Part shown: in pieces, positions 10,501 through 47,128 of the stretch | Layout of the letters: the number at the start of each line of letters is the position of its first letter | Position numbering within the stretch: position 1 is the first letter of the stretch | NCBI GenBank assembly: GCA_964036195.1 | Contig: OZ038454.1 | Coordinates: 20,074,315-20,138,314, forward strand | Length of the DNA: 64,000 nucleotides | Source: Sphaerolaimus hirsutus | Taxonomy: Eukaryota; Nematoda; Chromadorea; Monhysterida; Sphaerolaimidae | Reading direction: 5' to 3' | Position numbers and translations under genes: made by a program | Notes under the pieces: model-generated | Database searches by the model: none | Seen by the model: only the letters and a program-made list of their open reading frames with translations | What the model was told of the DNA's origin: nothing

Positions 10501-13500
10501 TTGAAGTTGGAGGCTGACAGCGGGCGTAAGGCTCCGTGCTACCCCGACCCTAAGCAAGTGCCCCAGCGCAGGGGAGGTTTTGCGATACCTACAACCAGAC
10601 ACATCACGTAAGTGGCATGCCGCTTCTGGAATAGACTAGAATGTATACTCGGCAGGCACGATACTCTACAAACAGATAAGAGTTAGGTCTTCGGCTGGCA
10701 GACAGCCAACCGAGAACTTATGGAAAGCGCGATGACGACGAAGTTAGTTAGTTAGTGTTAGTTGAAGACGACGTGATGGCGAGAGATGATGATGGCGACG
10801 AAAGTGTTCGCGTCATGATTTCCTGTTTTGTGTTTCCTCCGGAAAAATGTACGGCGTAATGTCATCCGAGTATAATTGAGGAAACGAGTTGGCTTAATTA
10901 TATAGGTACCGTATTTGCTTGAATAGTTCACCCCTTGGATAATTCCCCCCTTTTAGAGACTGAAAATATAATCCGCCTCGAATAATTCCCTCTTCAGGCA
11001 TATTTATGATAAATTTGTTGTGTATAATTTTAACAAAAATGCCATGATATAGTGCCTACACACACTAGTTTTCACCGTGACTTCGTGTGAAAACTGAAAT
11101 TTTTTCAAATGCAAATGAACGAACATGGTTGAATGATATTATTTAACTTAAATTAGAATTTAAATTAATGAAAGTTAAGCCTTGAAAATTTGAAAACTAA
11201 AACACCTATAGCATACAATAAGAGTAGGCTGGATGTCGCCATGTCGCCATTTCAGTTTTCACATCAGTCACGGTGAAAACTAGTGTGTGTAGGGCCATTC
11301 TGTTAATAAATTGATAGAAATATGTTGATAGAAATTTGCTTGAACTTGTTGACGAGATAATAATTCCACAACCCTTTGAATAATTCCCCCTCTTGAATAC
11401 TTACCCCACCTCCTTGAACAATTCCCCGTCTTAATTAGTTCTTCCACTCCTTGAATGATCCCCTCTCTTGAATAGTTAAAATAATTCCCCTTTGAATAGT
11501 TCCCACCCCCTTCAATAGTTACCCCCTCTCAAATCGTTCCACCTGAAAAAAAGTCTGACGAACAAATAATTCCCCAGGGGAATTATTGGAGCAAATACGG
11601 TACGATGTACACCGATAAATGGGATAGGAAATAGCTGGACGTGTTTTTGGGGATTCAGGGATAACGAATTTGCCTCGACATGTTATACTCGGCGGACATG
11701 ATACTCTGCCCTCGCACTCATTTATGTCTCACGTTGGAAGCGTGCCAATGATGACAAAGAATGCGATTTTTGTATAAAAAAATGAAAAAATCATTGTTGC
11801 AAGTTCACGTATAGAGTTATAACAGAGTTGACTTTTTCAACTTTTTTTGAAAATCGCATGCGTAAAAAAATTGTTGGCACGCTTCCAGCGGGAACCACGC
11901 GTGCAGGATATAAAGTGACTGGAGTATATTAGAAATACCTGAGCAGAGTAATTGCTTTTACGCATTCCCTGGAGTAGAACAAACAAAAAATCATTTTATA
12001 ATAAATTAAATAAATATGTATGTTAAGTGTAGCACAACTAGGTAGGGTTGGCCGATGTTTTTTTAAAACGTTTTATTAAAAAAACGTTTTTTTATAAAAA
12101 ACACTAGGTCCGAAACGTTTTTTTTAAACATCGGCCAAAATTTTTAGTACTAAGCACTAGGTATTTTGCAAAATTTTTGCGCGCAAGCGCGCAATTTCAC
12201 ACACAATTTGACATTGGAGGTTGTTTTTATTGGTTTGTGGCATTTTTAGTATCAAAGCAACCATTTCTATGTGCTACCATGGGTAAATAAGCCGTCATAT
12301 GTTGCTGTAGTATATAATATTCAGGTAATTTGCTTCCATGTACCTCCGCAGTGTGTAACATCACTCCTGAAGTAACAACCTCCATTTATAACTTTGTTTG
12401 ATCACTATTCCGTGCGAAACTTCACTTGAAGTTACGAACATTAGACTATAAGACGATTTACGAACATGTCGACAAAAAATGAACATTTTTGACACAAATC
12501 ACCACTTATAATGCTATCCCATGGCTCCACAGCCATTATATGGTCATATATATTAGGGTGTAAACTAAGTTTTTTATCTTTTTTTGCGATCTTATAGAAA
12601 TGCACTTTTCTGCGTCCTATTCTGTTGTAAATACATTGGGCGATTTTTATGCCCTTCGAGTATGTTGGGGTTTGGGGTCTGGGCTATGACGAAAATTGTT
12701 TGTTTCCTCGAATAATCCCCCAGTCCCGAGATAAGGGGGGTCTTTAAAAAGGTCTTCCATGGACGATGTGGACATTGACATTTGAAGCTTGATCAATCGG
12801 CCATTTCTGGGCAGACTTTATTCATTCAACACTTAAACTGCTCGAGACGACATGTAGATTCCAGTTTTGTGATTGAATTAGTGATGTCTAAACTCCGTAT
12901 ACCGATTTGACCCGGTTTTTAACACGGCACAAACTTTTTTCTGAACATGTTTTTGTATAGTTTAGACTAACAGAATTCATCTGGCACAAACATGTTTTCA
13001 ATATCTTTTTCCAATCAAAAGTTATAGCACTTTTAACTCTAAGCTTTTAGTTTATTGGCATACAGAATTTAGACATCACTTATCCGATTACAAAACTGGA
13101 ATCTACAGGTCGTCTCGATTATTTTAAGTGTTGAATGAAAAAAATCGGCCCAGAAATGGTCGATTTATCAATCTTCAAAGGTCAGTGTCCACATCGGCTA
13201 TGGAAAATGACCACCTTTTTAAATACCCCCCATATCTCGGGACTGGGGGATTATTCGAGGAAACAAAAAATTTTCGTCATAGCCCAAACCCCAAACCCCA
13301 ACATACTCGAGGGGTATCAAAATCGGCCAATGTACAACATAATGGGACGCAGAAATGTGCATTTCTATGAGATCGCAAAAAAGATAAGAAACTTAGTTTA
13401 CAACCTAATATAACATCACAGAGTATTGTCACTTGTCTGATATACCTATATATATTGACCCAGAGCCATATCTGGGAGCTTTAAAAAAACGTTTTTTATG

Positions 13501-16500
13501 AAAAACGTTTCAAACAGGGAGTTGAAAAACTTTTTTTTGCAACCCTAAACACAACTATCTAGGACTATAGTATTTACACCGCCAGTTTGAGCTTGAGTAC
13601 ACTCACTACAACGACATTTTGGAGTTATTCTCCTGGCGTCGCTTGTCTCATTCCAATAGCGTACGCACTACGGTAGAACAACTAGAATTACATGTAACCA
13701 ATACAACATCCCACCATCACTCACCCACCCCGCAATTGGAAATCAACCCAAAAATCACCACTGCCAACCCCCCACAAACCGCAGTTTCTGCGGGCCGCAG
13801 TTGGACGAACCGTTCGGCGTGCCCGACGAATTCGACATCAACGGCGGCGTGCCCGGCTCGCACACGGTCGCCGGCTATATAGAACGAATGTGGGCTTACC
13901 TTACTGTGCAGAAACTGATTGAGGAGTCTAGATCGTTTTCGCTGAGCCAAGCGGAGAAGGATGAAAGGGCTGATAGGGCACTTCAGATGAGCTTGAAGGT
14001 TGGTACCCTGTGTTGTATAATTTCGCGGATGTGCTATAAAGGATGGTAAACTTTCTTGAAAAAATTGTAATTTTTCGAGGTTTTAGATGTTTCACAATTT
14101 TTCTAAAAAAGTTTTTCATATTTTTTCACAATTTTTCTAAAAAAGTTTTTCATATTTTTTGCGTTCAGTTTTCTTTTTTTAAATAACTTTTTAACTTTTC
14201 TAGTCAATTTTGACTACATATTCACGTTTTACAGCTTCCAAACTATTGTCACAGTGAAATAAAAGTTTTGAATATTCAACACGTTATTCATGTATTTCCA
14301 CGCTTTTTCAAACAAAAACACAACAAAGCGAATTCGAAAACTTACATAAAAAAATCGGAAATGTTTTTGAATTGTTTTCCACCGTCAGTACTAGGTATTT
14401 CAGCAAATTGACATGGAACTGTTAATCGCAATCGCAAAAAGCCACCAACTCGCAGTACGGCCTAGTAAACGACCTAACCTCCATGGTGGTCGTGCTGCCC
14501 GACGGCAACGAGCGCCGCTTGCAGATGCACAGCGACACTCAGACATCCGGGTCGGGTTCGGCGACGGGTTCCGGTTCCGGACCTGCTCCGGGTCCTACCA
14601 GGAGACTCGGAATTGGACCACAGGGGGATCGGAATATTGGTGTACCCGATTCTAAACCGGGTGATCTATCTATTGGTGCAACGCAAAAACCCAGCACTGG
14701 TGAGAAAGTTGGATTTTTCTGGGCTGATCAGACATTTATGAACGATCAAATTGTGTGGGTCACTCATATTGCGTGAGAGGTTTTACTGAAAATCAAATCA
14801 TTCGATCAGAAACACCCTATGTGCCCAATTTTTGAGATCACGGTGGGTGAGAATTTCAGACTGATAATCAAATGTCGAAAGCTAATATGAAAACCAGTCT
14901 ATCTCGATCTAACATGAAAGTCACGTGAAATTCGGACCCTTGCGTGAAAAGAACAAATAAGTATGAATTTAAATGAATCAAGAAAACTGACGCATGCAGG
15001 CAAACCTGGCAAATGCCCAACAGAGACAACCTTTCTCTACGATAACGAGTCGGGCGATTTAAGCCTTTTTGCACCTGGAAGAACGACCACTAAAATCATT
15101 GAGCAGATACGGAGTGAACTGGGCTCAAACGCCAAATTTCAAGTTTGTTTGTCATTGTTGTATTGGCTGCATTGTAGGTACAGTGTGGTTTGCATTGAAT
15201 GCTGGGTGATTTTGAGAAAATAGTTTATTAGTTATAATCTCAGAAAATCTCACAACAGCAAAATATAATTAAATCTCTGAAAAAAGCAGAGAAAATCTAA
15301 CTGATGTATTTTTTATATTTTCTGCCCAGTAATAAAATATAATGGAATCTTTCTGGAACAACCTGGTGCCAATCTCAGGCCCGGTAAAGAGTAAAGTAAA
15401 GCGTCAAATGAGATGTAAAATGCCATGCAAAGTGTCAATTGTCATGCAAAGTTCAGGAATAAAATCTTTTCTGTTTTGTTTTGATTGACATTTAACACTA
15501 TACTTAACACTTGCCAGGGCTTTGGAGTGCCCCCTGGAGAAATATAAATAAATCTGAATTTTTTATATTTGCTGATATTTTTACATAAATTTGAGATTTT
15601 TTATATTTTCCGATATTTTGAAAAATATAACTCTCCCGAGATTTTTTCAATGGTAACTGTGCTAAGAAATCAACTGCGCGTGACACCCTGGAATTTATAG
15701 AGACAAAACAAGAACAAGCCTTTTCCAACCGCAGTTTGGGCGCATCTCGAAAAAACGTGATGTCGGATTTACGCATAAAATAGCGGGCAGACAAACTACA
15801 TCAGCAGTCGCCGCAGCGGCCGCAGATGCCATAAAACCCGCCGCGGCCAGAACACCGAGCACAAATGGATACATCGATTTTCTGCGGTTGGTGGGGAGTT
15901 CATCGAATTGTGAATGATGGATGCTAAAAAGTGCTGAATTTTGCGTTCTGCAATCGGGTGTTTTTGGATTCGCAAATTTTAATTTTTGGTGCGGCTGAAT
16001 GTTGCACGGCACACTCAAATTTTCAGTTGCAGTTCGAACACTTTTTCAAGGGCGGAATTCAAAAGGGCGGAATTAAAAACGGGGGCGGAATCAAAAAACC
16101 TTCAAACTGCCCTTGATTTCAATTCCGCACATGAAACGTTCGAACACTTTGCACAATGCAATTGCCCCGGATTGTGCATGGGTGGAATTATTTCAGACAG
16201 GTAGGAAAGTGCAAAGTGTCTGAACCGCCCTTGGAATTCCGCCTTGGTGGAATGCAAAAACGTCCGAACTGCCCTTGACAATTTTGAGTGTGCAGTGCGC
16301 CATCTAAGCAAGAAAACATTGGGACACTTTCTAGAGGGTGGAATTCAGTTTCGGTTTACACAAATATGCCACACGGTGAACTTCAATATCTTTTAAACAA
16401 GTGGATATTACAAAAAAAATTCTCTATTCATTTTTGAAGACAAAGCCTAGATCTACCTATAAAATTTTTTTCACAAATATGTTTGGTAAGATAAATAAGA

Positions 16501-17306
16501 TGTGTTTCTCATAACAACCTTCTCTAAAGGGTGTATCTCTTAAGTCAAGGGCGGAATTGAAAGTGTCCCAATGTTTTTGAAACGTTTTGTTATGATATGC
16601 AAATGGACAAAAACTGTGTGAATTCATCCGGATTTGTGTGAATTTCATCCGAATGTCCTAAAAATGCCACATGTTCTCTAAATAAAAATGTTCGAACCGC
16701 CCTTGGAGTTCTGCCTTGGCGGAACTCAAAAACGTTCGAACTGCCCTTGAAAATTTTGAGTGTGCGGTGCGCCAATGTGTAATGTTTGAAGGAATGTTCT
16801 AGCCCCTGGTGCAATTCGCACTTAGCCCTTAGTTTTTCATCTAACATTTCAATTCGGAAAATTTTTGGACTCTGGGGACATTTTTCAAATATCCGCAGTA
16901 TTTGAACAGTTAAATATCGAGATTCGAACGATATTAAGCTGCGATTTTTAACACACTGGTATGGGAAGCATATAATATCGCATTAAATGTCACACAAATT
17001 CACCGGTTGGAACAGTGCCAAAATGCATAACCACCACATCGCAGCTACATGGTGAGAAGCAAAGACAAAGACACACTGGTCGTAGTCTTCACCGACCGAT
17101 CCACACTCATGGGCCGATTAGGCAGAACCATGTCGAGCATGCGCAACAGCTTCGGCGTCAGGATGTTGTTCGTGAACACGTCCGGCATCCCATTCACCAG
17201 CGAAAAGAGACAAGAATTGACTGGCATCGTGGGCGGCGATGGGGCCAGAGTGATTGAAAGCGCCGCGCCCATGCAGCTGGTCGCTAATATGGCTTGTGCT
17301 CCGTGA
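4543..17306 (+). CDS. Inter-alpha-trypsin inhibitor heavy chain-like protein (5' part missing)
   Basis: Exons read: 4543-4714, 8269-8484, 9830-9925, 10286-10607, 13785-13998, 14456-14699, 15000-15177 (or 15142) and 17045-17306 (TGA). Junction phases 1,1,1,2,0,1 agree across the first seven. The protein follows ITIH order. First comes the second half of a vWA domain (NDYFNVLLF; GGTNIHAAL across the first junction; VLFLTDGQPT with the late metal-site Asp). Next are the post-vWA blocks (ARKIYIDSDA, then QLENFYDIMATPLITN) and the YIERMWAYLT helix typical of the family. The exon from 14456 opens YGLVNDLTSMVVVLPDG and then has a Gly/Ser/Pro linker. The last exon (TLVVVFTDRST, FGVRMLFVNTSG) looks vWA-like. 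Secretion is inferred from the family. The join into the last exon is the weakest point: only the 15177 donor keeps frame. The introns carry most of the repeats listed below. Confidence 0.82.
4862..5318. repeat. Palindromic MITE with GTTCCGCAAGTGG ends
   Basis: The left end is CCAGGGGCCAGTTCCGCAAG and the right end CTTGCGGAACCGGCACCAGG, an inverted repeat. Inside are many AAGTTAAGAG units facing TTAACTCTTA units, and a short TTGGATACAAA hairpin at its centre. A partial element of the GGCAGTCCC family follows directly (5318-5390). It lies in the first visible intron of the ITIH-like gene. Confidence 0.75.
5530..5730. mobile_element. TA-flanked MITE (TACTCGGCGGAC family)
   Basis: About 200 bp, bounded by TATACCCGACAGAC and GTCTGCCGAGTATA. 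The interior is a foldback: CCTACCATAATTCAATGAATA faces a copy of its complement, ATGGTAGG. Other copies lie at 28818, 53812, 54791 and 58580. The TA boundary suggests Tc1/mariner mobilisation. Confidence 0.75.
6081..6745 (+). mobile_element. hAT-like MITE, TAGGGTTGG family, copy 2
   Basis: Full-length 665-bp copy with both termini and a perfect 8-bp target duplication GAATGAAC (6073-6080 and 6746-6753). It is very similar to the 627 copy throughout, including the GCGCGCTTGCGCGC block near 6600. It lies in the same ITIH-like intron as the next copy. Confidence 0.9.
7033..7226. mobile_element. GGCAGTCCC-family MITE
   Basis: A foldback with left end CTGGTGCCAATCCCAAGC and right end GCTTGGGACTGCCCCCTG. 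Inner arms are AAGTGTAAAGTAAAGTGTCA and its complement. The family recurs at 15364, 19491, 23542, 36083, 47129, 49066, 54678 and 57497. Its ends carry splice-like sequences (GTAAAG near the left, ACAGGG near the right). Confidence 0.75.
7346..7896 (+). mobile_element. hAT-like MITE, TAGGGTTGG family, copy 3 (truncated)
   Basis: It begins TAGGGTTGG like the full copies but lacks the left-end ACTCGATG hairpin. It stops after ACGTCATGTTAAAAAAACG without the CATCGGCCAACCCTA right end. No target duplication can be assigned. It lies in the same intron as the 6081 copy. Confidence 0.8.
9351..9814. mobile_element. hAT-like MITE with ACGTTTACTCG repeats
   Basis: The ends CATAGTTGTTAAAACGTATT and TACTTTTAACAACTCTG are inverted. 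Flanks GCCTCACC (9343-9350) and CCCCCACC (9815-9822) match at 6 of 8 positions, consistent with an old target duplication. The right flank lies within the polypyrimidine tract of the next ITIH-like exon (acceptor at 9829). The insertion therefore sits about 15 bp from a splice site. Confidence 0.7.
9926..10285. repeat. GGCGCC/GCGCCATGGCGC-rich intron segment
   Basis: This intron of the ITIH-like gene contains a run of AGCGCCA, ATGGCGCTT and TTGGCGCC units in both directions (about 10005-10245). The same units occur in the CAGGGACGTA MITEs and in stand-alone clusters at 47060 and 58120. They create long open frames on the opposite strand that are not genes. Confidence 0.6.
10644..10874. mobile_element. 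TA-flanked MITE, diverged TACTCGG family
   Basis: It starts TATACTCGGCAGGCACGATA and ends CATCCGAGTATA. It lies just 3' of the donor of the 10286-10607 exon. Only the termini match the family; the interior (GATGACGACGAAGTTAGTTA) is unrelated to the other copies. Confidence 0.5.
10909..11600. mobile_element. CCGTATTTGC-family element with nested MITE
   Basis: The ends CCGTATTTGCTTGAATA and TATTGGAGCAAATACGG are inverted and both flanked by TA (10907-10908, 11601-11602). Inside, 11054-11295 is a separate foldback whose arms are CCTACACACACTAGTTTTCA and its complement. The rest is degenerate TTGAATAATTCCCC. The TA flanks suggest Tc1/mariner-type transposition. Confidence 0.7.
11684..11928. mobile_element. 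TA-flanked MITE, second subfamily
   Basis: It starts TATACTCGGCGGACATGATA and ends AAAGTGACTGGAGTATA. The inner arms are CGTTGGAAGCGTGCCAATGA and TTGGCACGCTTCCAGCGGGA. A close copy lies at 52929-53188 inside another transposon. Confidence 0.7.
12043..13547 (-). mobile_element. hAT-like MITE, TAGGGTTGG family, copy 4, split by another element
   Basis: An inverted-orientation copy. Its left end is TAGGGTTGGCCGATGTTT and its right end GCAACCCTA. It is interrupted at 12553-13408 by a long palindrome. If the left end includes an extra TAGG, the flanks AGCACAAC and AACACAAC match at 7 of 8 positions. It carries the GCGCGCAAGCGCGC block at about 12180. It lies in the intron before the 13785 exon. 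Confidence 0.8.
12553..13408. mobile_element. 856-bp foldback element nested in the MITE
   Basis: It begins TTAGGGTGTAAACTAAG and ends CTTAGTTTACAACCTAA. The two arms pair over about 350 bp each, including ATTTCTATGAGATCGCAAAA, CATAGCCCAAACCCCAAACC and ACATCACT...TTACAAAACTGGAATCTACA. The flanking TATA (12549-12552 and 13409-13412) is a 4-bp duplication: the uninterrupted MITE copies read CATATATAACATC here, which fixes both boundaries. No transposase is present. The superfamily is not clear. Confidence 0.85.
15364..15537. mobile_element. GGCAGTCCC-family MITE
   Basis: The foldback runs from CTGGTGCCAATCTCAGGC to GCCAGGGCTTTGGAGTGCCCCC. Inner arms are AAGTAAAGCGTCAAATGA and ATTGACATTTAACACT. 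CTGG occurs at both outer edges. It lies in the last intron of the ITIH-like gene. Confidence 0.65.
15695..15874 (-). CDS. Possible small secreted peptide, antisense in an ITIH-like intron
   Basis: An ATG-started frame of 59 codons on the minus strand. It opens with a signal-peptide-like segment (about 26 residues: MYPFVLGV, then an Ala-rich core ending AATADVV). A short tail with three Cys follows (CLPAILC, PNCGW). A 3' splice acceptor (ACCGCAG) lies 8 bp before the ATG, and possible donors (GTAGTT, GTTTGT) follow the signal region, so this could be the first coding exon of a longer gene. The segment is GC-rich compared with its surroundings. No homologue is recognised. A chance frame is a real alternative. 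Confidence 0.3.
   Translation of the reverse strand: MYPFVLGVLAAAGFMASAAAAATADVVCLPAILCVNPTSRFFEMRPNCGWKRLVLVLSL
16002..16775. repeat. Inverted repeat with GGGCGGAATTC units
   Basis: The left arm (GGCACACTCAAATTTTCA near 16010) and right arm (GAAAATTTTGAGTGTGCGGT near 16755) are complementary. A third copy of the right arm lies near 16280. Between them AAGGGCGGAATT, AAGGGCAGTTCGAAC and their complements recur, as does TTGGGACACTTTC. No coding content. Non-autonomous transposon debris is likely. Confidence 0.6.
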
Positions 17307-18065: not shown

Positions 18066-21000
18066 ATGGCAGAAATTGGCCGCGGTGGCGGTACGGGCTC
18101 CAAACCCCTGCCTAAAGTGTGGAACCATTACAAAGCCATTTTACTGGTTCGTCTTTTCAATTTTCGTTTTGGAAGTACGGGGTTTGTCTGGATGAAATAA
18201 AATCTGTCGCATTAATTTTTTATCTATACCGTATTTATTCTAATATAAGTTCGGGTCTCCAATAGGGGGTACACTTTTTGACTTTGTTTGGACCACAAAA
18301 TGAACCACGTTGTCCAATAGAATATATATTTGTAGCTCATCTTTGACACCTCACGCAATAATTATTATAGGACCTGCATTATTTCACAGTTAGACCGGAA
18401 AACCGACAGCGAGTCATTTTGGTGCGAATTGTTTCTGTTGTCCGCTCGGCCGGATTTGCTGATGCGAGCTCTGGATACTATCTCAAATGAAAAGTTTCAA
18501 AGTCTCAAGGTTTGGTAGTTTTTGTAGTACAATTTCTGAAAATCCATGAAATTTGTTTTCACATTTTTTTTCTCTCAGAAACCAGTTGGATTGCTAGCAA
18601 GTCGCTGTTGGCTGACAATCAAATCGCGAAATGACATTCGGGCGTTCAATGCATTGATAGTTAGTCATTCATTGCACCCTGGGGCTAGTTCCGCAAATTA
18701 AGAAGTGATAAGTAAAATGCCAGGTGAAATTGCCAAGTGGCAGAAGCGTAGTCAGTGAATTGAGAAGTAAAATGGCAAAAGTGAAGAGAAATTACTTTTT
18801 ATTTGTTTTTACTTCGCTTTTGCCAATTTACTTGCTATTTCACTTCACTATTGCCATTTTACTTTGCTTTTGCCATTTCACTTCTCAATTTGCGGAACTG
18901 ACACCAGGTCAAGTTGAATCGTTTTTTCCGCATCCGGAAGTAATTGGACACATTATTACGGCCGCGTAAGCGGCAATTTTGTCAGGGATTGTACATAAAT
19001 CCGGTAGTACTGTGATGGCTGAGCTAGGGTTGGAAAAAATTAACTTTTTAAACGCCTCAAATTTTTTTTTTGAAAACATGGTTCTAAAACACGTTGGTTA
19101 CAACCCGGACGCTGAAAAATTTTTTTATTTAATTTTATTTATATTACGTTTAATTTTGAAGAATTGATTTTTTCAATTTGAAAACAACGTTCTTTTAGAC
19201 ATTGTCTGCAATCGTGCGAACTGTTGGTCATCGATTGAGTACTAATTGCGATGCATTCGATACAGACAATGCTGAATTTGTCCTTGGGGATGTTGAAGTG
19301 GCACCTGTAAGTGACATCTCGTTTTATATTGTCGTCATATATTTAAATGGCTTATGATTAATTTTTCAGGATCTCATAGACAGGCTTTGCGAAATCCTTT
19401 GCACCAATGTGTCAAGTCACTTTCGTTCGGCTGCAGTCACTTGTTTACTTTCTATGGCACTTGTTGGTTTCCATTTTCAAATTCGCCAAGGTGCCAGTCG
19501 CCACCCTGTAAAGGGTAAAGAAAAATGTTGGAAATCATAAAATCTCATTCAAATTTGTCAATTGTCGTGCAACATGTCAAAAGTTTAGGTATAAAATCTT
19601 TTCCTATTTATTTAAATTGACATTTTACATGGCATATGACATTAAATTATTTTGAAGTGACACTTAGATTTCAGTTTACGCTACTTCACACTTTACAGAG
19701 TGCGGGACGGGACATCTTGAGGCCATTTTTGCTAGTGCAATAATTACACTGGGCAGTAACTTCGTATTGCGTATTTTTTATATTTTAGAAAATCGCCGCA
19801 GGTAACTGATAATATCGATCACAGCTGTTTTATGGAAATGTTGGTTGCGGCACCCACTATTTTTGATGCTTTAGTTCTGGTGAGTGGTGAGTGCTAATTT
19901 TTAGTGTAAAATTTCTGTCGTTTGGAAAGTTTTCGTATTTTTGTTTTCACGCCACCTTCTTTAAGGAAGGGATCAGTACCATTTTTTGGCAGCTACCTGT
20001 TTTATAGCTCGATTTCTGCTACGCATTGTATTTTTACTGGCAGTGTATTTATTACTGCTTTGCATGCTCAAAATTTTCATCGTAGACAATAGCCACCGGG
20101 CAACGTGCCAAATTACGACACCTCACGCGAGATGCTGCATTGTTGCTAACAATTTTAGTCAATTCTAGAAAGGATCAGGTTCGAATGGTTGTTTTCTTTT
20201 CACCAAACTATTCAATTTTTTAAAATTGAATCCCCCATTTCAGCGCACGAACGCCTGCATCGCCAAGCTGTCCATGCTCGACGATGAGATTGCACTTAGT
20301 GTGAGCTATCGTTTGATTGCCAATTTTTTTGAAAAAATATTGACTGCATGTGATTTTTGAACAGGGTCTGAGCGCTGCCTTTGCTTGGCATTTGACAGAG
20401 AGAAACGAACACCACAAACGGTTAGCTCAAAGTGCGCAGAACAAGAAAGAACAATCGAAGGGCTACTTTGCTGGATTTGCCGACTGGGTGGGCGGAGTTT
20501 TGGTGGGTGGGGACGACGATAACTCCACCATGGATGTGCAGTGAGTTTTCAGTATGGTATAAATATATTCACCATTCGATGGTTGCGTTCAACCGTGTTG
20601 TTTCCTTTGCAGTCCCGACATAGACGTCTTACTGTGCTTGTACGAGGCGGTGCACTTGAACAGGAACTTCGTCGCTACCTTGACATCCGTTTGTTATACA
20701 TTTGGGAATTTTTAGATGTGTCAGTAGCAGAATAGCAGCGTTAGATCGTTGAATTGACATAAAAATGGTTCTGTTTATTTTCAGTGAGGAATGTGTGTCA
20801 GTCTTCTCCAAGATTTTGACCCTCGCGGTAGCTGGATAGGTATCAAATCGCTTCTCCGGAGGAAAAGATAATAAAAAATCTGGGATGGTTTCACGAGGGC
20901 AAAATATAAACTGTATTTCCTCCAATTACCCCCCGGGGGGTTTATTTTTTCAGATTAGATATTTTGAGGGGGGTATTTTGTAGGGGGTTTATTATTTCGT

Positions 21001-24000
21001 TTCAATAACTAAATTGTTATCTGTAACATATACAGACATCGAAATATGCGACAAAAACCGCCATGTATAAGACTCTATAGACTTCAACAGTTAGTATTTA
21101 TGTAGATGGTATGAACCCTGTCCTAACAGAATACAGTCATTGTTTTTAACGTGTGTTCTGCGTTTCCCGGGTCACAAACCGCAGCTTCGATCATTTACGT
21201 TCTCTATACACTTAATTGGGGGGGGGTATTTTTCAAGGGGGGTATTATAGGAAATACGGTAGCTTTTTCAACGTCGAAACCCTTGGTGTATAAAGTAAAT
21301 CATGGCGACATTCAACTTCATGTATGTGATCTCAGCAGAGATTAATTTTCACTTATTAGATAATATTTTTGCTGATTTTGGTTGTCCAAAACTAAACTGG
21401 TGGAAAATATAAATGAGAAAATCACTTTATTGTATTTTACAGATCCCACATGCAAGCTGTCAGGCTGTCATCTTGTGTGAGGGTGACCCCAAGTGTTCAC
21501 TATATATACCCTAGGGGGCACCCCCCTCAGGCCACCCTTGGTGCAGAAAATAATTTTTTAATCATTTTTTTCTGGAAAATATAAATGAGAATTCCATACA
21601 AATTTTTGTTCCCGATGAAATTTAAATTTTTAATATATTTTTTTCTAGACACTTAAGACAAAAAAAGTTTTTTTGACATTGGTAGAGTGTAAGTACGTGC
21701 AACTTTTCTCCCCTCTCAGAAACCCCAGAAGCCCCACACGATGAAGGCATTGTTGATCAAATAAAAAAATTTTTTTGGAGAAAAACATAGGTTAGAAAAA
21801 GTGGACAATCCACTATCCCAAGCTATTTATGGAGCACATGGGGGCCATAATTGGCTCGCTCAGTGTCAGGGGCAACATATGGCTGCTCCTGGGTTCCGTT
21901 TTTGCACTTATGTATTTTTTATAGCAAATGATAAAAACAGCCCTGTGTAAAGAGGGCACTCGCGTGACAGCGCGTCCAGCGCCTGCAGTGTCATGATTCA
22001 AATTACAAAATACTTGTGCCCATTCAATGTGGGCACTAATTATCTGATAAAAACCTATAGGGGCCAATGGGCAATGTGCCCTGTATCTAGTGTGACTGGC
22101 CCAGACAAATAAAGAGGTCATGTCCAGAAAATCAAAAATCACAGTTTTTTTATTACAACCACAATTTAGGTAATCACAAAGTTTCAAATCATTGTTGACA
22201 TGGCTTTGTGGCACATGTCTGTATATTGGGGGTAATTTTTGTGTGGGGGTCAAAATATACCCCCTACTTACCAGTGGGTCAAAAGATGGCTTTGGGCAAG
22301 CCACAAGGAATTTTAATTTTTTGAAAGAGCACCAACACAAGTGTATTCATCACTTGTGTTGTCAGCACACCAAAAAAGGCTGCACACATTACTGCAGCCA
22401 TATTTTGTACGGTTTTTTGAAAATTCTCATTTATACTTTCCGGAAAAAAATTGGCAAAATTTTTTCATTTATCTGTAGCAGCAGAACAGGGGGGTGCCAT
22501 GGGGTGCCACTTGGCATTTATGTAGGCAAATGTTGTGGGCACCCCCACAACAAATGGCAGCCATATTGGGCTGCACGTTTCCCTGTGAGATTGTTATGGA
22601 AAATGAGGTACCTGATTTCTCATTTAAATGTGCCACCAGTTTACATAAGTCCCTATATGTAAATTTGTACTGATACAATTCTTTTACGAATGGCAGCATA
22701 GAGAAATTTTTTACGTATCGAAGGGTCAATTTGTAGCTCGCAATTATTACATGCAGGGACGTATCCAGGATTTTTGAGCGGGGAGGGCTGCTTGTTTACA
22801 GAGCCCGGCGAGCCCCCCCCCCCTAAAATTGTGTCCACAGAGTAACGGAATGTTTCCATGGCGCTGGCGCCATTCGTGGGCGCCACGCCATGGCGTCATT
22901 GGCGCTGGCGCCAGTGCCAGAAATCACTATATATGTATGTATGTAAATAAATGCACGTATACAGCGACGGGCACAATTTTGAGATCAATTTCAGGAATTT
23001 GTACCTACAGGGACCAATCCAATGGTAATTATTTATGTGTGAGGGGGTGAATGCGCGCTTGCGCGCAAAATTTTTGCACAAACATTGAAAAACGTATAGG
23101 AAAAGTTGAAGTGTTTATGCTCCAGAAACCTAAATATGAATAGGACCTGTTGTGTAGAAAGGAAATGCGCGCATGCGCGCAAATTGCTTACAAAATCGAC
23201 ATATAAATGTACCGTTCTTGGAATTTCGTTATGTTCCGCTCGGGAAAGGGGGGCAGTCTCCCCCCACCCCGCCTGCGTATGTCCTTGGTTATCACGTAAT
23301 ACCCTTCAATATATCCATGCAACCGTGGCGGCAAGACTGACTGTGCATTGACACCCCCCAGCCACCCGCCGCCGTTTCAACGGGGCACACGAGCGCCACC
23401 TTGCGCGCCAACCACCCAGACGGCCAGTCGACCAATGGCGCGAGCACTTGCGGCGACAGCGCGTGCTGCGACGGCGCCAATGGCTGCGATTCTTCGCAGT
23501 CGGTCCAGTCCAACGGCGTGCCTGCCGTAGCGGCGGCGCAGGTGCCAATCCCAGACCTTGTAAGATGACACATGTCATGCAAATTGTCAAGAGTCATGGA
23601 AAATGCCGTGCAAAATGGCGATATGAATATTTAGTTAACATTTTGCAGGGCATTTTACATGACTTTTGACACTTTGCGTGGCATTTGACATTTTACAGGG
23701 TCTGTGACTGCTCCAGGTGGCCTGCCCGCTCTTGCCCGCCTTCCTATTGCACACGTCTGTGCTGTGCCAGCAGCTCAGGGGTTGGGGGTTGTCATTCTTA
23801 TAGGGATTTTGATTTACTGTTTGCACTCTCTGACTGTTGTGATTTTTGTGCAGATCCTCGATCGTATGAGGCTGCCAAATTGGCTTTCATTACATTGACG
23901 TGCATAGTCGAGGTAAGTTCTAATATTTTGTTAAATTCGACAAATGAGCACTTTTGGGAGTCTCCAGGATTTCGACTCTTGCGGGGGTTCGATTGATAGA

Positions 24001-27000
24001 AAATTTATCATCCAGAGGGATAGAGAGCTGTACAAAAATTTGGGGGAGGGTTCGCGGGTGTTCTATATATAAATATAGGTCATTATTAGAAATTTAGCGA
24101 TTTTTAGTGAAACATTGGAGAAAATAAGCTCAAAATTTGTACCCTATAGGTAGACAGCTGAGCGATTTTTATCTGGGGGGGGTTCAGACGATAGTAGCCA
24201 GATGTTTTCCTAGGGATAGATAGATATTTATATAGCTGGGCGATTTGGTAGGGGCTGGGTTACCCCTCCATGGCAGAACCCTGGTAAAAACGATAGTCAA
24301 TTCAAGTCAATCATTCTTACTCCGTATTTATTTGCTAAATTTGAATAAATTCCACGAAGCCATACTCAGGACCAGTATTCGCTAGCGCTGATGCACGACA
24401 CACAGTGCTGCGTCCGTTGCCCCATATATTTGGCGCCAATGCGACAACGAAAAGGCGGTTTTGAATGCTCCACGCAATGTAAGCCGTGCCCGTTGGCCGC
24501 GGCACTTTTGGCGCTGTGCCAGGAATTTGTCGTCAGCCATATGACGCCCAGTGGGGAGAAGTTTCCGCACGAAATGTATGGGTGCGTTGCGTGTTTTCGA
24601 TGAAATCTGCTATTTCTGCGAAAAGTAACTCTTGTGAAAGTACAGCGGATATTGGCATGCATAAAGGAACCTACGTAAACGTATTTACATAAATTACTCT
24701 TATCATATTTATCAGATCACCAAACAAGTACCGCAACTCGTCAGTATTCCATATTTTCGAACTCGCCAGTGAAAAGTAGATACGTAACTTATTTTGTTGA
24801 GACTTTTAATGTTAGTGATGTATGGTAAAACGGTTCGCCATGTTTTCATGCATTTTACGTGTCAAACACGTCATGAATTTTTACATTGTGTTTTACTGCA
24901 TGTTGATCCAAAATCATTTAAATTGCAGATTGGTCCTCGGCTGTATACACAGACTATTGTGCTACGAGAAAAAGTGCGGTGTCAGACTGAATTATGACTG
25001 GCGATCGCTTTGGAATGGTTATAAATTTTACATTTTACTTTTTTTTGTTCACATGCCAATGAACATACATAACCCAATATGTATTTTACTTCAGCTCTAA
25101 TTGGTCTGATTCGATTCCTGGTTGCAAACGAGTCGACATTGGAACGTCACTTCAGCGTGTTGGCATTGTGCCAACGTGTTGTCCAATTGCTCAATTTATT
25201 CATAACATATGGAGATACATTTCTTCCTTCAGCACTACATTATGACCAGTTGTACTACGAGATCGTTAGACAGTCGTCTGTATTTGATGCCCTGCATTTC
25301 ACTGGTACGTTGGTTTTCGACTTGGACGACGGTGTGCCTCAGCCAACGATGGAAAAAACACAGAAATTGAACACAGAAACTCATTGAGTTTCTGTGTTTT
25401 TGTTTTACACAGAAACACGGAAACTCATAAATTTTGAAAAACTCAAAACTCAAATGAGTTTTTTTGAAGAACACAGAAACACGGAAACACAGAAAAGTTT
25501 TTTGAGTTTTTTTTTTCTCAGCGAAGTGGTTGAATGCACATTAATTCAGTTTAACTAAACATAATAAGATAAGCATCTATAGTATGTAAATAGGTATGTA
25601 CTTAATGTACGGTATTCATATTTTATAATGGTACAAAAACTAAATTTAAGATGGCATGCACATCTCATGGTGGATTTGACAATTTAAGTTTCGTCAATTA
25701 AGTATACCTTATTACCTTGAATAAACCCCCCCTTGAATTAACTCCCCTCAAAATGGACTGGTGAAATAATAAGCCCCGCCCCCCTCGAAATACCCCCCTC
25801 CGGGATGATGTAAATCATGTATCCAATGTACATGGTGTATTTATTACTGCTAATTTGCATCGCAGCTACACATAAGCTGTACTAGGTTGTGTAGCTGACT
25901 ACATGTTTTTTTTCAAATATATCCTGTTTGTTTTGTACGCATTTATAACCTGTTTTGGGTACGTAAATGCCTACTATTTTCTATGATCCTCACAAAACTT
26001 TCTGACGAAATAATGATGCCCATGGGGGTATTTCGAGGTAATATGGTAGTTGTAGTTCAAATCAATTCCGTAGTCTTCCATACAGTGCACATCCATTGAA
26101 TAATTTTGGAGTACTGCGTAAATTGTCATTTCTGGGCATTTTGTTGCTAGTGTTGTGATGTTGATGTCATCATTGTGGACATTTTTAAGGACTGTTTTGA
26201 CACTTGAATGAATACACAAATGTTATGTGGGGTTAAAACATGTGCAAAACCAATATTTTATAAGAAAACCACTGTTTCCAGATCGAAATGCTGTAAATCA
26301 AAATTTTTTGGGGAAAACTCGAATTTTTTCGGAAAAAACTCGAGTTTTTTTAGAAAAAACTCAAAAAACTTGAGTTTTTACAAAAAAACACAGAAATAAA
26401 AACAGAGTTACTCAAGTTTTTTTCTTGAAAAAAACTCAAAACACAGGTATTCATTTTTGAAAAACTCAAAACACAGAAAGTGTTTTTTTTGGAGAACTTA
26501 CCCATCGTTGGCCTCAGCGCATGTGAACTCTCAATCAAAGCTCTCAGCGCATCTATGTGGCGGCACAACGGTGGCTGGCATCTTGCCAAAATATATGAAA
26601 CGAAATCAAAACTGTATTCAAAAATCCCGTCAAATGGTTTCAGGGCTTAACAGTGGACATATTCCAGGTTGAAAGTTAGCAAGTGTGGCATGGCACGGGA
26701 AGATCTTTGATTGTGCTCCCACGCATAGGGTGCATAGTAGTGATGGAATGTCGTTATGGCTCTGGTGCAAATTTTTTGGCGCTTCATCACCAGTGCATAG
26801 ATACGCTGACATGTGCTGAGAGTTTAGATGCGCTAAGGGTTTTCCGCCACAGTGCAAACTCCTCAACACAGTCCTACGACACGTGCAAGAGTCGTCTCGC
26901 CCGAGCACGTCCACCCAGTCGACATGCGGCGGCGTGCAGCGGTCAAAGTCGCTGCCGCACCGCCTGTCCACGCAGTTGGCCAATGTGCGCTCGATTTCTA

Positions 27001-29887
27001 CGCAGCTGCAAGCGACACTGGCTGACGGCACTGGCGCCGTGCAGTGGAAAACTGAGGAGGAGGTTTGTTGAGGCGTTGATGATGTTTGGACTATCTCGGC
27101 GGACTGTGAAGTGCAACCCAAGTACAAACAATCGAACCAGTACGGCTAGGGTTCAAACGGGATTGACTTTTCGGGATCGGGATTCACTTTTTGAGATTTC
27201 GGGATCGGGATTGGTTTTTTGAGATTTCGGGATCGGGATTGGCCGGGATTGGGGTCACGGGATCGGGATCGGGATTGGCATTTTTCCGGGATCGGGATTG
27301 GGTTCTAGGGATAGAGATTTTGACCATTTTTCTGGCATTCACAGTTGTTCATAAAGGTCTCAAAACACTGTTGGATGTCAGAACAGTGGCATAAAATTGA
27401 CACTGGGGGTTTGCATCCATTTTTTTGCATGCAAAAACGTCATTATTTCACGTTTTATAATTTCCACTAATTTTTCCGGGATCGGGATCCCTGACTTGGG
27501 AGTTTCTCGGGATCGGGATTGGTATTTTTGGATTTCAAGATCGGGACTGGTGAATCCCGGAATTTCACGGGATCCGGGATCGGGATCGGGATCCCGTTTG
27601 AACCCTAAGTACGGCTCAATTTAATTAATTATGCTTCTATTTGAGATATTCAAATGTCGATTTGGGTGAATATTTCTTACAATTGATTACGCACACGAAT
27701 TAACCCTTCTAGTGTCTTTACACCCTTATATAAAATTGTATTTCCAAAATCGGTGACAATAACCGACAATTGTCAACAATTGTCAATTGTCATTTATCAA
27801 TTTATAGCCTGGTCGCTACAAATATTTTCCGGGAATATTCATTCGAAATTATGGCCTGAATCTTGTATCACTCGCCTTGTCAAAAATACCCCAATGCTAA
27901 GGAAATTTGGTTAAAAATCAAAATTTGGTATGAAAAAGCCATTTACATTGCATAAATGTTCCAAATACTTCTGGAATGGAATTTGTAATACTTATATATG
28001 TCTACTTCGTGAAGAATGACGTCATATACAGCCCCAATGCAAAGATTAGTCAAAAATACTGGCCTTTGCCTTTAATAAACAGGTAATTATTTGCTAATGA
28101 TGTAAATAAATGCCCCCATTGAATACCAACACCAAAAATTTGCGGTTAAGCTTTTACAAAAGTTTACTCGATAATCGACTGAAAAAATATTTTCAATATT
28201 ATGGTGGGAAATTGTGATTTTACCCCTCCCTCTTCGATCGATGGACTGATTACTTATTGCAAGTAAATCTGCAGAACAACTTTTTCTAATTCATCCTGCA
28301 AGTTCAAGCGAAACTGCCTATTCGTCGGTCAAATATTTCAAAAATATGATTTAATTTTTCAAGGCACATGACACGTGCACAAGGACGTAGCCAGGGGGGG
28401 CGGGGGAGGGCGGCCGCCCCCCCCCCCCTTCCCGGGTCGAACAAAAAAAAAGCCAGAGATGGCGGATCCGTAAAGCGATTTTGTCGGCAGTACGCAAAAA
28501 ATTTTGCGCGCAAGCGCGCATTTCGTCGCCACGGAGTATAGTTTGGGACAAAAAACACTCAAAATACATATGTCCCCGTCGCAGTATATGTATGTAAAAT
28601 ACATACACTGTATAACAGTGTTTGGCGCCAATGCCAACGCCAATGGCGCCATGGCGTGGCGCGTACGAATGGCGCTGGCGCCATGGCGCCATTCCTTTAC
28701 CGCTGGGGTCTAAATTTAGGGGGGGGCGCCGCCCCCCCCCCGTTTGCCGGGCTCCGTAAACAATCCGCCCCCCCCCCCGCTCAAAAATCCTGGCTACGTC
28801 CCTGCACGTGCAGTTAATATACTATGTTGGAGGGTGTGCAGAATCCTACCATAATTTATTAAAAAACTCTTGTGATAAATTTTAATTTCGTAATTTATTA
28901 TTCCGTAGTAAAAACTAAATATTATGATGAAAAAACTGTATAATTTTTGGTTCATTATTCAGATGGGTTATGGTACTTTTCCATACTAAGTGTGATGTCC
29001 GCCGAGTATACTAATAATAATTCTTTGCTACAAGTTTCTAAGAAATAAATAGAAATATGGGGCTTTTTCTGTATGAGAAAGAAATACGATATCATAAGAT
29101 CGATCCACATTGCGATCGCTTTGTCGGTTCAAGTGAAATGTATTAAAAAGTTGAATGTTTAAGTATTTTTATAATCTACCTGTCGATCCATTCACTTTTT
29201 CTATTTACTTTCAAACACATCATTTTTGCAGGTACTTGAAGTGGTGCGGCAGAGCTATGGCACTCTCAATCTGAAATTGTACGATAGTTTGGAGAAATTT
29301 GATCGATACAATGAACGGCCGCATGTGGAATTCTTCCATACAATTGTACGTGGGGCAGGTTTTTCTCTATCAGTTACTTGTGTTGTCTATTGTGGTATGG
29401 TATTCCTCGTCTAAAAGAAATAGTTAAACGTAAAATGAATTTACACCAGTTAAATATGCGGGAGTGTTGCATGCTCATATCATCATAAACTTTTTGTGTT
29501 TTTGCTATAATTGTTCACATAAAATGCGTAACAAATAAAAAAATCGTTATACCGAATTATCATTTATGATCATTTTCCAGCATTCTTGGATGCAGGGTTC
29601 TCGGGTGTAGGGGGTCGTGTGGGGTAATGTGTGTGGTTTGTGCTGTCCCTGCCTCCGGACGAGCTATTTCCAATTTATATTTACGTATCAGCCCCCGCGA
29701 ACGTCAAAGCCTTGATCGAATATAACGTCCAGCAACCACTTTAAAGTGAAGAGTTTGCAACTTGTTTCAGGTTCGTGGCGTCATAGCATTATGGCGGGCA
29801 GAATTGGACTCTAGAAGAGTCGACGCGGCCGGCGCTATAGCCGAATTGCCAACCATTCAGTTTGAGAAATTACACCCGGAGTCATAA
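18066..29887 (+). CDS. ARMH3: ARMH3 (C10orf76) orthologue, Armadillo-like helical domain protein
   Basis: Nineteen exons: 18066-18146, 18390-18509, 18579-18659, 19199-19306, 19370-19462, 19802-19879, 20086-20178, 20244-20300, 20365-20540, 20613-20688, 23362-23541, 23717-23780, 23854-23912, 24370-24581, 24929-25017, 25095-25304, 26872-27062, 29232-29345, 29771-29887. All phases agree. They give 732 aa, against about 689 aa in the human protein. Diagnostic blocks: [112 protein letters not shown]. In vertebrates ARMH3 binds GBF1 and PI4KB at the Golgi; the same role is inferred here. The exons at 23362 and 26872 encode Ser/Thr/Cys-rich linkers longer than the human ones. The start is the first ATG of a conserved-phase exon. 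Confidence 0.95.
18676..18912. repeat. Palindromic MITE in ARMH3 intron 3
   Basis: The arms are CTGGGGCTAGTTCCGCAAAT and ATTTGCGGAACTGACACCAG. The interior has AAGTGAAATGGCAAAAG facing its complement. Same family as 4862-5318, though shorter (about 235 bp). Confidence 0.7.
19491..19709. mobile_element. GGCAGTCCC-family MITE, degenerate, ARMH3 intron 5
   Basis: The left end is GGTGCCAGTCGCCACCCTGTAAAG and the right end CACTTTACAGAGTGCGGGAC. Inner arms contain TTGTCAATTGTCGTGCAA and TTGACATTTTACATGGC. The ends are more diverged than in other copies. Confidence 0.55.
20689..23361. other. Long ARMH3 intron 10: repeat remnants
   Basis: It contains a CTCCGGAGG/GATAGGTATC fragment (about 20810-20870), a degenerate TTTATT-CCCCCC/CCGTATTTCC element (about 20905-21260), AT-rich sequence with no clear boundaries (21270-22740) and a CAGGGACGTA MITE at 22754-23287. 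Open frames around 21813-22660 lie on both strands. They lack domain features and exon-like composition, and I do not call them genes. Confidence 0.5.
22754..23287. mobile_element. CAGGGACGTA-family hAT-like MITE
   Basis: It starts CAGGGACGTATCCAGGATTT and ends CCTGCGTATGTCCTTG. The GGCGCCATGG cluster (about 22858-22920) and two GCGCGC(T/A)TGCGCGC blocks (23055 and 23167) are present. At 534 bp it is longer than the other copies. Flanks ATTACATG and GTTATCAC do not match, so the target duplication has decayed or one end was replaced. Confidence 0.75.
23542..23716. mobile_element. GGCAGTCCC-family MITE coinciding with ARMH3 intron 11
   Basis: A 175-bp foldback lies exactly between two conserved ARMH3 coding segments. 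Upstream coding ends GCGGCGCAG. The element starts GTGCCAATCCCAGACCTT and ends GTGACTGCTCCAG. Coding resumes GTGGCCTGC ([14 protein letters not shown], matching the human segment). CAGGTG occurs at both edges, as a duplicated target would. Read through, the in-frame element contains stops, so it must be spliced. The outer GT and AG do this in frame. A stronger donor (GTAAGA, 23560) would add six residues. Confidence 0.75.
24003..24290. repeat. GATAGATAGCTGGGCGATTTGG repeat fragment
   Basis: ARMH3 intron 13 holds a remnant of the family seen complete at 33760-34239. It has CATCCAGAGGGATAGAGAGC, AAATAAGCTCAAAA and GGGATAGATAGATATTTAT. No inverted ends or target duplication are recognisable. Confidence 0.5.
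25344..26510 (+). mobile_element. CAACGATGG hAT-like element, copy 2, in ARMH3 intron 16
   Basis: The 1167-bp element has ends CAACGATGG and CCATCGTTG and a perfect 8-bp target duplication GCCTCAGC (25336-25343 and 26511-26518). It is closely similar to 2057-3207 along its whole length, including the internal GGGGGTATTTCGAGGTAA part. It sits 40 bp after the intron's donor and has no coding capacity. Confidence 0.9.
27147..27607. mobile_element. GGGATCGG-rich hAT-like MITE, copy 1
   Basis: It starts TAGGGTTCAAACGGGATTGA and ends ATCCCGTTTGAACCCTA, with the perfect 8-bp duplication AGTACGGC on both sides (27139-27146 and 27608-27615). Both halves consist of clustered GGGATCGGGATTGG units. The core (about 27320-27470) is unique sequence shared with 32200-32360 and 49310-49450. 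It lies in ARMH3 intron 17. Confidence 0.9.
28380..28804. mobile_element. CAGGGACGTA-family hAT-like MITE in ARMH3 intron 17
   Basis: It starts CAAGGACGTAGCCAGG and ends CCTGGCTACGTCCCTG, with target duplication CACGTGCA (28372-28379 and 28805-28812). Layout: G/C homopolymer tract, GCGCGCAAGCGCGC at about 28507, a CATACACTGTAT core, GGCGCCATGG cluster at about 28620-28690, second G/C tract. Confidence 0.92.
28818..29010. mobile_element. TA-flanked MITE (TACTCGGCGGAC family)
   Basis: It starts TATACTATG and ends GATGTCCGCCGAGTATA, with the family's interior hairpin (CCTACCATAATTTATTAA facing TTATGGTACTTTTCC). It lies 13 bp from the preceding hAT-like element, in ARMH3 intron 17. Confidence 0.7.
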
Positions 29888-32022: not shown

Positions 32023-32551
32023 TAGGGTTCAAACGGGATTGACTTTTCGGGATCAGGATCGGGATCGGGATTCACTTTTTGAGATTTCGGGATCGGGATT
32101 GGTAATTTGAGATTTCGGGATCGGGATTGGCCGGGATTGGGGTCACGGGATCGGGATTGGGATAGGCATTTTTCCGGGATCGGGATTGGGTTCTAGGGAT
32201 AGAAATTTTGGCCATTTTTCTGGCATTCACAGTTGTTCATAAAGGTCTCAAAACACTGTTGGATGCCAGAAAAGTGGCATAAAATTGACGCTGGGGGTTT
32301 GCATCCACTTTTTTGCATGCAAAAACGTCATTATTTCACTTTTTATAATTTCCACTAATTTTTCCGGGATCGGGATCCCGGACTTGGGAGTTTCTCGGGA
32401 TCGGGATCGGGATTTGAAAACTTTCGGGATCATGATTGGTATTTTTGAGATTTCGGGATCGGGATCAGGATTGGGGTTTCGGGATCGGGATCGGGACTGG
32501 TAAATCCCGGAATTTCACGGGATCCGGGATCGGGATCCCGTTTGAACCCTA
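32023..32551. mobile_element. GGGATCGG-rich hAT-like MITE, copy 2
   Basis: It starts TAGGGTTCAAACGGGATTGA and ends ATCCCGTTTGAACCCTA. The 8-bp duplication TACATGAG is perfect (32015-32022 and 32552-32559). The core is nearly identical to the 27147 copy; the GGGATC arrays differ in unit number. Confidence 0.9.
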
Positions 32552-34239: not shown

Positions 34240-34380
34240 ACTAGTGTGTGTGACAAGATATAATTGATGACAATTTTTGATGTCAACTTTATGACAAGAT
34301 ATAATTAGTTACATTCTCTGTACAGCATCAACTTCGGTCAATAGACAATAGTGATTATGTATATTGGATAGGGTTGGCAC

Positions 34381-34877
34381 TAGGGTCGAAATGGAATCCC
34401 GATCCCGATCCCAAAACATTTCGGGATTTGGTGGTCCCGATCCCGATCCTGAAACCTCAATCCTGAAACCTCAATCCTGATCCCGATCCCGAAATCTCAA
34501 AAGCCAATCCCGATCCCGATCCAGAAACTTTCAAAATCACAATCCCGATCCCGAAAAAATTTATACAATCCCGATCCCGATCCCAGAAAATTTGGTCAAC
34601 CTCATTAAATGCCCTTTTTGCATTAATAAATTTTAACCAATGTCCACTTTATGCCTCTTTTCTGGCATCCAGACGTGTTTTTGAGTCTGTTTTGTGAAAA
34701 CATTGGCAAAAAACGTGTATATTAGAATGTTTTCAAAAATGCCATTACCGATCCTGAAAAATGCCAATCCCGATCCCGAAAGGTCAATCCCGATCCCGAA
34801 ATCTCAAAAACCAATCCCGATCCCGATACCAAAAGGTCAATCCCGATCCGATCCCGAGATCTCAAAAACCAATCCTC
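34381..34877. mobile_element. GGGATCGG-rich element, rearranged copy
   Basis: Starts TAGGGTCGAAATGGAATCCCGATCC in a CCCGATCC array on the complementary strand, with core and second array to about 34877. The terminal GTTTGAACCCTA is missing, so it is truncated. No target duplication. Confidence 0.65.
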
Positions 34878-35539
34878 GTTTATCTTTGCATTTCAGCATT
34901 TGAGATTTTATCCTATTGCTGAATGTTTCCGCATGAAAAAGTGTACGCATCTTTTGAATGCTGAAATACATGCTGAATTGACAAACCGCCTAATTTTCAA
35001 GAGTACGGACGATTTGAGTTCAGCAAGTTTTTTTCTATTCAGCATTTAATTCGGCATTTGTCAAAAACGTGCGTATGCCGAATATTTCGGCTTCAGTGTG
35101 CGTAGCGCCATTCTTTCATAGTGCAAATTTTGTAGGGGGGAGTTCGAGGGGGGCGTTATTAATTCATAGTGGCCATTTTTAGGGGCGGTATTTTCGGAGA
35201 ATACGGCATATGATCGTCCTTGAAGTTGCTTTAAATGTTTATCAAAGCTTCATGATGAGTGAAATTTCTGCCGGGTGGCCAAAAAATGAACAAAACATCG
35301 ACAAAAAAGCGAAACTCATAAATCTGTTTTGAAAACATTTTAGTTTGTCAGAAAGCATGATTTTTAACCGCTGTCAACAGTAGTTGACAGACTCTTCATT
35401 CTGGTAAACTAAAATGCGTTCAAATCAGATTCAACGAGTTTCCGAATTTTGGCGGTGTACGAATGTGAGCAGCGCCGTAGTAACAATGGTCCTGATTAAA
35501 ATTCAGAGTGCAGTTGCAACACACGTAAAGATGTATAGC

Positions 35540-36250: not shown

Positions 36251-36309
36251 GTTTTACTAGAATATCTCGTTTAATCTCAATACTCCAAACTTGCAGGACA
36301 TCTCTAAAT

Positions 36310-47002: not shown

Positions 47003-47128
47003 TATTTGCATTGTTCTCCCTAAGACGCGAACGTGTCCCAAAACTTGTGATGGAATGGCGCGCGCCATTTGGTGACCCAAAATGGCGCCAGTGTCATGGC
47101 GTTATTGGCGCCCCGTTCTCTGGCGACC

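Follow-up and report, generated by a model that had tools for sequence, protein, structure and literature searches.

Introners of the DNA-transposon type were reportedly described by Huff et al. in 2016. Introners form families in which numerous copies serve as introns, and those of DNA-transposon type are non-autonomous, carry terminal inverted repeats (TIRs) and a short duplication, and make an intron when they insert (PMC9860276, Gozashti et al. 2022). In Chrysochromulina, introners combine an element-borne 5' splice site with a co-opted 3' splice site, and the example given has a 4-bp duplication and no TIRs (PMC9860276). According to the available part of that paper, introners among animals and land plants have been reported in only two groups, both of them animals (PMC9860276), so that the way in which animals acquire introns is seldom seen. 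The hairpin introner elements of Amoebophrya have inverted repeats able to pair the intron ends, together with direct repeats of 3-5 nt at the exon/intron borders, and are defined among the non-canonical introns of this dinoflagellate (PMC7789003). The NuwaI group of the PHIS (PIF/Harbinger-related) superfamily is characterized by CWG duplications and by TIRs that usually start with GGG; in the available part of its description it is known only from animals, and intron creation is not mentioned there (PMC4482050). Autonomous NuwaI partners would encode a DDE transposase and a Myb/SANT protein. Among the matches listed in the open-licence literature, no link of Harbinger or NuwaI elements to introners was found; one listed paper, PMC8476143, contains both terms.

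The element considered here lies in an ARMH3 gene within a window of 64 kb, the whole stretch of DNA that was analysed. We think it probable, from the sequence evidence below, that a coding exon of ARMH3 received a NuwaI-like MITE, which is now an intron that uses the duplicated CAG as its acceptor. The putative event is the introner-like gain of an intron at a single locus, and not yet an introner family. As in DNA-transposon introners, the element is non-autonomous, has TIRs and a short duplication, and would have made an intron by its insertion, with the element bringing the 5' splice site and a co-opted site at the 3' end, the arrangement given for Chrysochromulina; in contrast to introner families, a single copy is seen serving as an intron (PMC9860276). 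The host is, judging by its genes, presumably an animal. Its duplication is a 3-bp CWG and its ends are TIRs, unlike the Chrysochromulina example (PMC9860276). It shares with the Amoebophrya elements inverted repeats able to pair the intron ends and short direct border repeats, but its intron is GT-AG and it belongs to a recognisable MITE family (PMC7789003). The CWG duplication is shared with NuwaI, and a GGG-starting TIR at one end, seen in four other family copies, may be shared as well; this element is a 172-bp MITE and the TIR at the other end starts with GTG (PMC4482050). The features of the locus are collected in Table 1.

Table 1. Positions in the window of the element, its candidate splice sites, the adjoining putative coding blocks and two further MITE copies in the gene. 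A slash marks a candidate splice junction.
Feature	Position	Strand	Basis or remark
MITE copy, 172 bp, near-palindrome with NuwaI-like ends	23542..23713	+	palindrome, fold, blastn, shared ends
Left CAG of the target-site duplication, last codon before the element	23539..23541	+	edge comparison
Right CAG of the duplication; best-scoring frame-keeping 3' splice site candidate (CTGTGACTGCTCCAG/G)	23714..23716	+	score 4.4
Donor candidate D1, CAG/GTGCCA, weak	23542..23547	+	score 2.0; GT unpaired in predicted hairpin
Donor candidate D2, CTT/GTAAGA, in frame, adds six codons (VPIPDL)	23560..23565	+	score 5.2; paired in predicted hairpin
Internal acceptor-like site TTTGACATTTTACAG/G; its use gives an in-frame TGA	23684..23698	+	score 6.2
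Upstream block, 60 codons (PPAAV...PAVAAAQ), putative variable ARMH3 linker	23362..23541	+	open frame, GC3, position
Downstream block, 21 residues, phase 0 in and phase 1 out	23717..23780	+	frame; by eye, resembles the human protein
Second-family MITE copy in predicted ARMH3 intron 18660-19198	18679..18907	+	19 and 291 nt of intron residue
Family-1 MITE copy in predicted ARMH3 intron 19463-19801	19488..19718	+	25 and 83 nt of intron residue

The whole element is one long palindrome, with arms at 23546-23617 and 23639-23710 that are 83% complementary. Its predicted RNA fold has an energy of -93.5 kcal/mol (z -12.6), a stability equalled by 0 of 200 shuffles; the predicted folds of other family copies range from -47 to -105 kcal/mol. 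The ends read GTGCCAATCCC and TGACTGCTC. In blastn searches within the 64-kb window, the element matches 5343-5394 at 88.7% over 53 bp (E 1e-13) and is similar also to 15361-15450 and 7080-7228. It is thus a short element with terminal inverted repeats and multiple copies, the properties of a MITE. A plus-strand scan for GT..AG pairs 80-500 nt apart, whose edge 3-mers had to be identical and whose 24-nt terminal inverted repeats had to agree at 16 or more positions, returned two matches in the 64 kb as a raw count, one of them being 23542-23716.

The sequence-only reading had proposed an intron of 175 bp that begins with GT, ends with AG and has CAGGTG at both edges. This description fits 23542-23716, of which the element makes up 172 bp and the second CAG the last 3 bp, and CAGGTG lies at 23539-23544 and again at 23714-23719. 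The element had also been called a GGCAGTCCC-family MITE from end to end. Its family membership was upheld because of the whole-element similarity, not because of GGCAGTCCC, a motif that is absent from this copy even with one mismatch allowed. The 9-mer itself occurs at chance level (9 matches with at most one mismatch against 6.35 expected, and at least 9 in 20 of 100 shuffles). Its count, no more frequent than chance, was dropped as evidence for the family.

Nine family copies or remnants were accepted, including the ARMH3 copy and a remnant lacking ends at about 4320-4460 (by eye, E 0.01), while weak blastn matches near 18844, 20379, 39872, 40118, 57527 and 5235 (E 0.01 to 0.4) did not enter the count. 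Besides the ARMH3 copy, readable ends are found in the copies at 5315, 7035, 15363, 19488, 36080, 47128 and 54677. One of the nine accepted copies or remnants in the 64-kb window lies at an exon edge. The splice-like ends earlier ascribed to other members are present in part of the family. In the alignment, GTAAAG occurs in three of seven left ends (15363, 36080 and 19488), with GTAAGA in the ARMH3 copy and damaged forms in the remaining three, and ACAGGG occurs in four of six right ends (7035, ARMH3, 36080 and 5315). The left ends of the family start with GTG, or with ATG in 36080. Reading inward, the right ends of 7035, 15363, 36080 and 47128 start with GGGG, and that of the ARMH3 copy starts with GAGCAG.

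An exact CWG duplication borders four of the six two-ended copies, with CTG on both sides at 7035, 15363 and 47128 and CAG on both sides of the ARMH3 copy (23539). The edges of 36080 (CAG and TAG) are one base off, and those of 19488 (AAG and CTT) show no CWG duplication; the edges used in this triplet comparison were set by the analyst. The middle bases of the edge triplets are identical in five of the six first-family copies, whereas membership of the inverted repeat would make them complementary. The element edges therefore fit a CWG target-site duplication, the NuwaI signature. CWG duplications together with GGG-starting TIRs mark NuwaI (PMC4482050), and the family is therefore labelled NuwaI-like, as its presumed transposon group. 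The TIR pattern was absent from the viral and prokaryote contigs scanned.

Other repeats occur in the same window. A second MITE family, with ends GGGCCAGTTCCGCA and TGCGGAACCGGCAC and CWG-like edges, is present at 4863-5317 and 18679-18907; its edge triplets are CAG and CAG at the first site and CTG and CAG at the second. At 5315, a family-1 copy lies immediately on the right CAG of the second-family copy at 4863-5317. At 47128-48113, a family-1 copy is split by nested insertions (by eye), among them a repeat of another family that starts with AGGGTTG and ends with CAACCCT, at about 47466-48098 (by eye). Another repeat, roughly 0.6-1.4 kb long and ending in GGGTTGG...CCAACCCT, was seen by eye at 630-1290, 6083-6745, 7345-7890 and 12046-13510, and several of its copies contain a GCGCGCTTGCGCGC core (by eye). 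Elements with GGGATCGGGAT repeats at both ends (27149-27610, 32026-32550 and 34369-34880, by eye) sit in an ARMH3 intron and downstream of ARMH3.

The host gene is identified as ARMH3 by exons downstream of the element. In Pfam, the exon at 25094-25303 matches ARMH3_C (E 2.6e-21), as do the exon at 29232-29354 (E 9e-08) and the joined C-terminal fragment (E 2.4e-46). Two of the three ARMH3 exons submitted singly matched ARMH3_C, the one at 24367-24579 having no Pfam match. Joined fragment 1, which contains both blocks flanking the element, had no Pfam match, and joined fragment 2 gave only a sub-threshold match to DUF3131 (E 0.011). A human ARMH3 query of approximate sequence gave 17 tblastn rows, nine of which are colinear and span 18408 to 29351. 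Six of these nine have E 1.2e-6 or better, and the rows at 18408 (E 0.25), 19358 (E 6.3) and 23853 (E 1.2) are weak; the other eight rows lie off the line, with E 1.2 to 8.3. None of the 17 rows covers either block flanking the element.

Fifteen other ARMH3 introns were placed by frame and homology, with boundaries between 25303 and about 26850 excluded. The resulting splice profile is small, because these 15 introns were picked by eye for GT/AG and frame. Position +5 of the donor, which was no selection criterion, is G in 14 of the 15, and their acceptor scores range from -1.8 to 9.8. Beside the ARMH3 element there is no intron residue (0 nt), whereas the two other MITE copies in the gene have residue on both sides (Table 1), the pattern that elements landing in older introns should leave. 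The copy at 19488 was weighed as another exact introner of ARMH3 and rejected: splicing at its left edge (AAG/GTGCCA) would put the following exon out of frame, and the predicted intron extends beyond the copy on both sides.

Removal of the element with one CAG, 175 bp in all, joins 81 codons without a stop, and its retention leads to a stop after VPIPDLVR. The proposal that a transposon copy forms the entire ARMH3 intron is partly supported: the location in ARMH3, the borders resembling a target-site duplication and the frame-opening removal hold, and the first base is less certain, as the donor there is weak beside D2. In the scenario we prefer, a NuwaI-like MITE would have inserted at a CAG of a coding exon, in a linker between helical parts of ARMH3, duplicating the CAG and becoming an intron. 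The second CAG, which follows the element's pyrimidine-rich right end, would then provide the 3' splice site, and the 5' splice site would be borne by the element itself. Use of D1 would restore the old mRNA exactly, and use of D2 would lengthen it by six codons. The insertion appears to have struck an exon, rather than a position beside an older intron.

The 5' edge may lie at either of two donors, the stronger of which, GTAAGA, is in frame and found 18 nt into the element. D1 has C at position +5, and 34% of GTs in the window score as high; a third donor tried, at 23518, scores 1.8. The donors at 23518, 23542 and 23560 were each joined to seven AG sites between 23634 and 23778, and the frame was kept without a stop by only three of the seven (23716, 23770 and 23773). 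Splicing to either of the latter two would remove part of the downstream block, and their scores are 1.7 and 1.3, compared with 4.4 at 23716. Acceptor-like sites at 23648 (9.9) and 23698 outscore 23716, and each gives a stop with every donor. In the predicted hairpin, D2 and 23698 are paired and 23648 is paired except for its G, while the GT of D1 and the terminal AG are unpaired. As an acceptor, the consensus ends followed by CAG score 4.2 and the ARMH3 copy 4.4, both inside the range of the 15 placed introns, and a CTG target scores -0.7.

Sequence score favours D2 and predicted structure favours D1, and the two candidates appear about equally likely. Two main workable introns are predicted, one of 175 bp through D1 and one of 157 bp (23560-23716) through D2. 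The GTAAGA may be a subfamily trait rather than a product of selection for a better donor, because the copy at 5315 also has GTAAGATG.

Of the competing explanations, the one that survives best, although we regard it as unlikely, is that the element hit the acceptor CAG of an older, larger intron running from about 20689, so that 23362-23541 is non-coding and no new intron arose. This explanation stands because the empty site, ...GTAGCGGCGGCGCAG/G, has an acceptor score of 3.3, within the range of the other predicted introns; acceptor CAGs would also be targets for a CWG-targeting element. The empty-site acceptor, however, has no pyrimidine tract, and the explanation requires an exon-like block to be non-coding. 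Neither flanking block has a match in Pfam, PDB or tblastn, and the upstream block is therefore read as coding from its composition (GC3), frame and position.

The upstream block is open, and its GC at codon positions 1, 2 and 3 is 0.62, 0.68 and 0.82. In a position-specific test it scores 5.6, a value that 8 of 5000 shuffles attain. The mirror frame on the minus strand scores 5.9, so that the position test favours the frame and not the strand, an ambiguity seen also in one or more exons with homology support (17049-17303). The 180-nt windows that are open, 9829 over the two strands, were scanned with the block's own values as cut-offs, and five merged places reach its score with GC3 of at least 0.8: the block, its mirror, an AMP-binding exon, the mirror of that exon and an OATP stretch. 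In favour of the older intron, the codon log-odds of the block against base composition are negative in the correct frame (-10.8); this is the best of the three plus-strand frames, and one minus-strand frame gives -8.1. The shuffle control for the log-odds (1380 of 2000) was computed in the wrong frame.

Against the older intron, the block has an acceptor-like site, CCCCCCAG/C, in matching phase. It also sits, in an alignment by eye, at what we take to be the place of a linker of about 45 residues in the human ARMH3 query. By eye, the downstream block resembles TSNLLITFLKYSSIVMQ, which follows that linker. The frames of the two blocks, set by the predicted outer introns, agree across the empty site, for which the chance is one in three. 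We infer that the upstream block is coding.

A further explanation, which we hold to be improbable and more so than an older intron, is that the element lies in an exon and is removed inefficiently or not at all, giving a broken allele, broken transcripts for the most part, or a truncated product of splicing at internal sites. The weakness of D1 would suit this, as would the internal sites at 23648 and 23698, which outscore the terminal acceptor and whose products with D1 or D2 contain stops. The downstream exons nevertheless still match ARMH3_C, colinear exons are found on both sides of the element, and the terminal sites are exposed in the predicted fold. The flanking frame has also stayed open although the element is about 11% diverged from its window relative over 53 bp. 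That an unrelated old intron merely resembles the family by chance, or that the assembly is in error, is very improbable, since the chance-level GGCAGTCCC count and the missing motif in the ARMH3 copy are outweighed by the blastn match to another copy, the stable whole-length palindrome and the common ends.

A wider proposal, which at present is unlikely, is that in animals transposons of the NuwaI type come ready-made for creating introns, and that many introns of this animal are former copies. At splice sites, the exon side usually reads CAG/G. An element targeting CWG would land at such proto-splice sites, so that the duplicated CAG can act as an acceptor. Under this proposal, the fixed CWG target would equal the proto-splice site in half of the orientations, and the family TIR would supply a starting GT at one end and, at the opposite end, a C-rich tract leading up to the duplicated CAG. 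The palindromic sub-terminal repeat (CCTGTAAAG and CTTTACAGG) would offer a further donor and acceptor whichever way the element is oriented. If the proposal is true, roughly one in four insertions into exons would be spliceable at once. A CWG preference that matches the exonic part of splice sites would give a mechanical reason for a given transposon group to yield introns, and could be looked for in any animal genome with NuwaI elements.

Other genes in the window include one at 4543-17305 that is ITIH-like by eye, both of its submitted fragments being without a Pfam match. On the plus strand, 36300-44500 encodes an AMP-binding enzyme that by eye looks like an acetoacetyl-CoA synthetase and whose joined peptide matches in Pfam with E 6.3e-18; its single frame at 40215-40727 (E 2.2e-6) falls just under the curated cut-off. 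An OATP transporter lies on the minus strand at 59900-62000 (E 4e-14).
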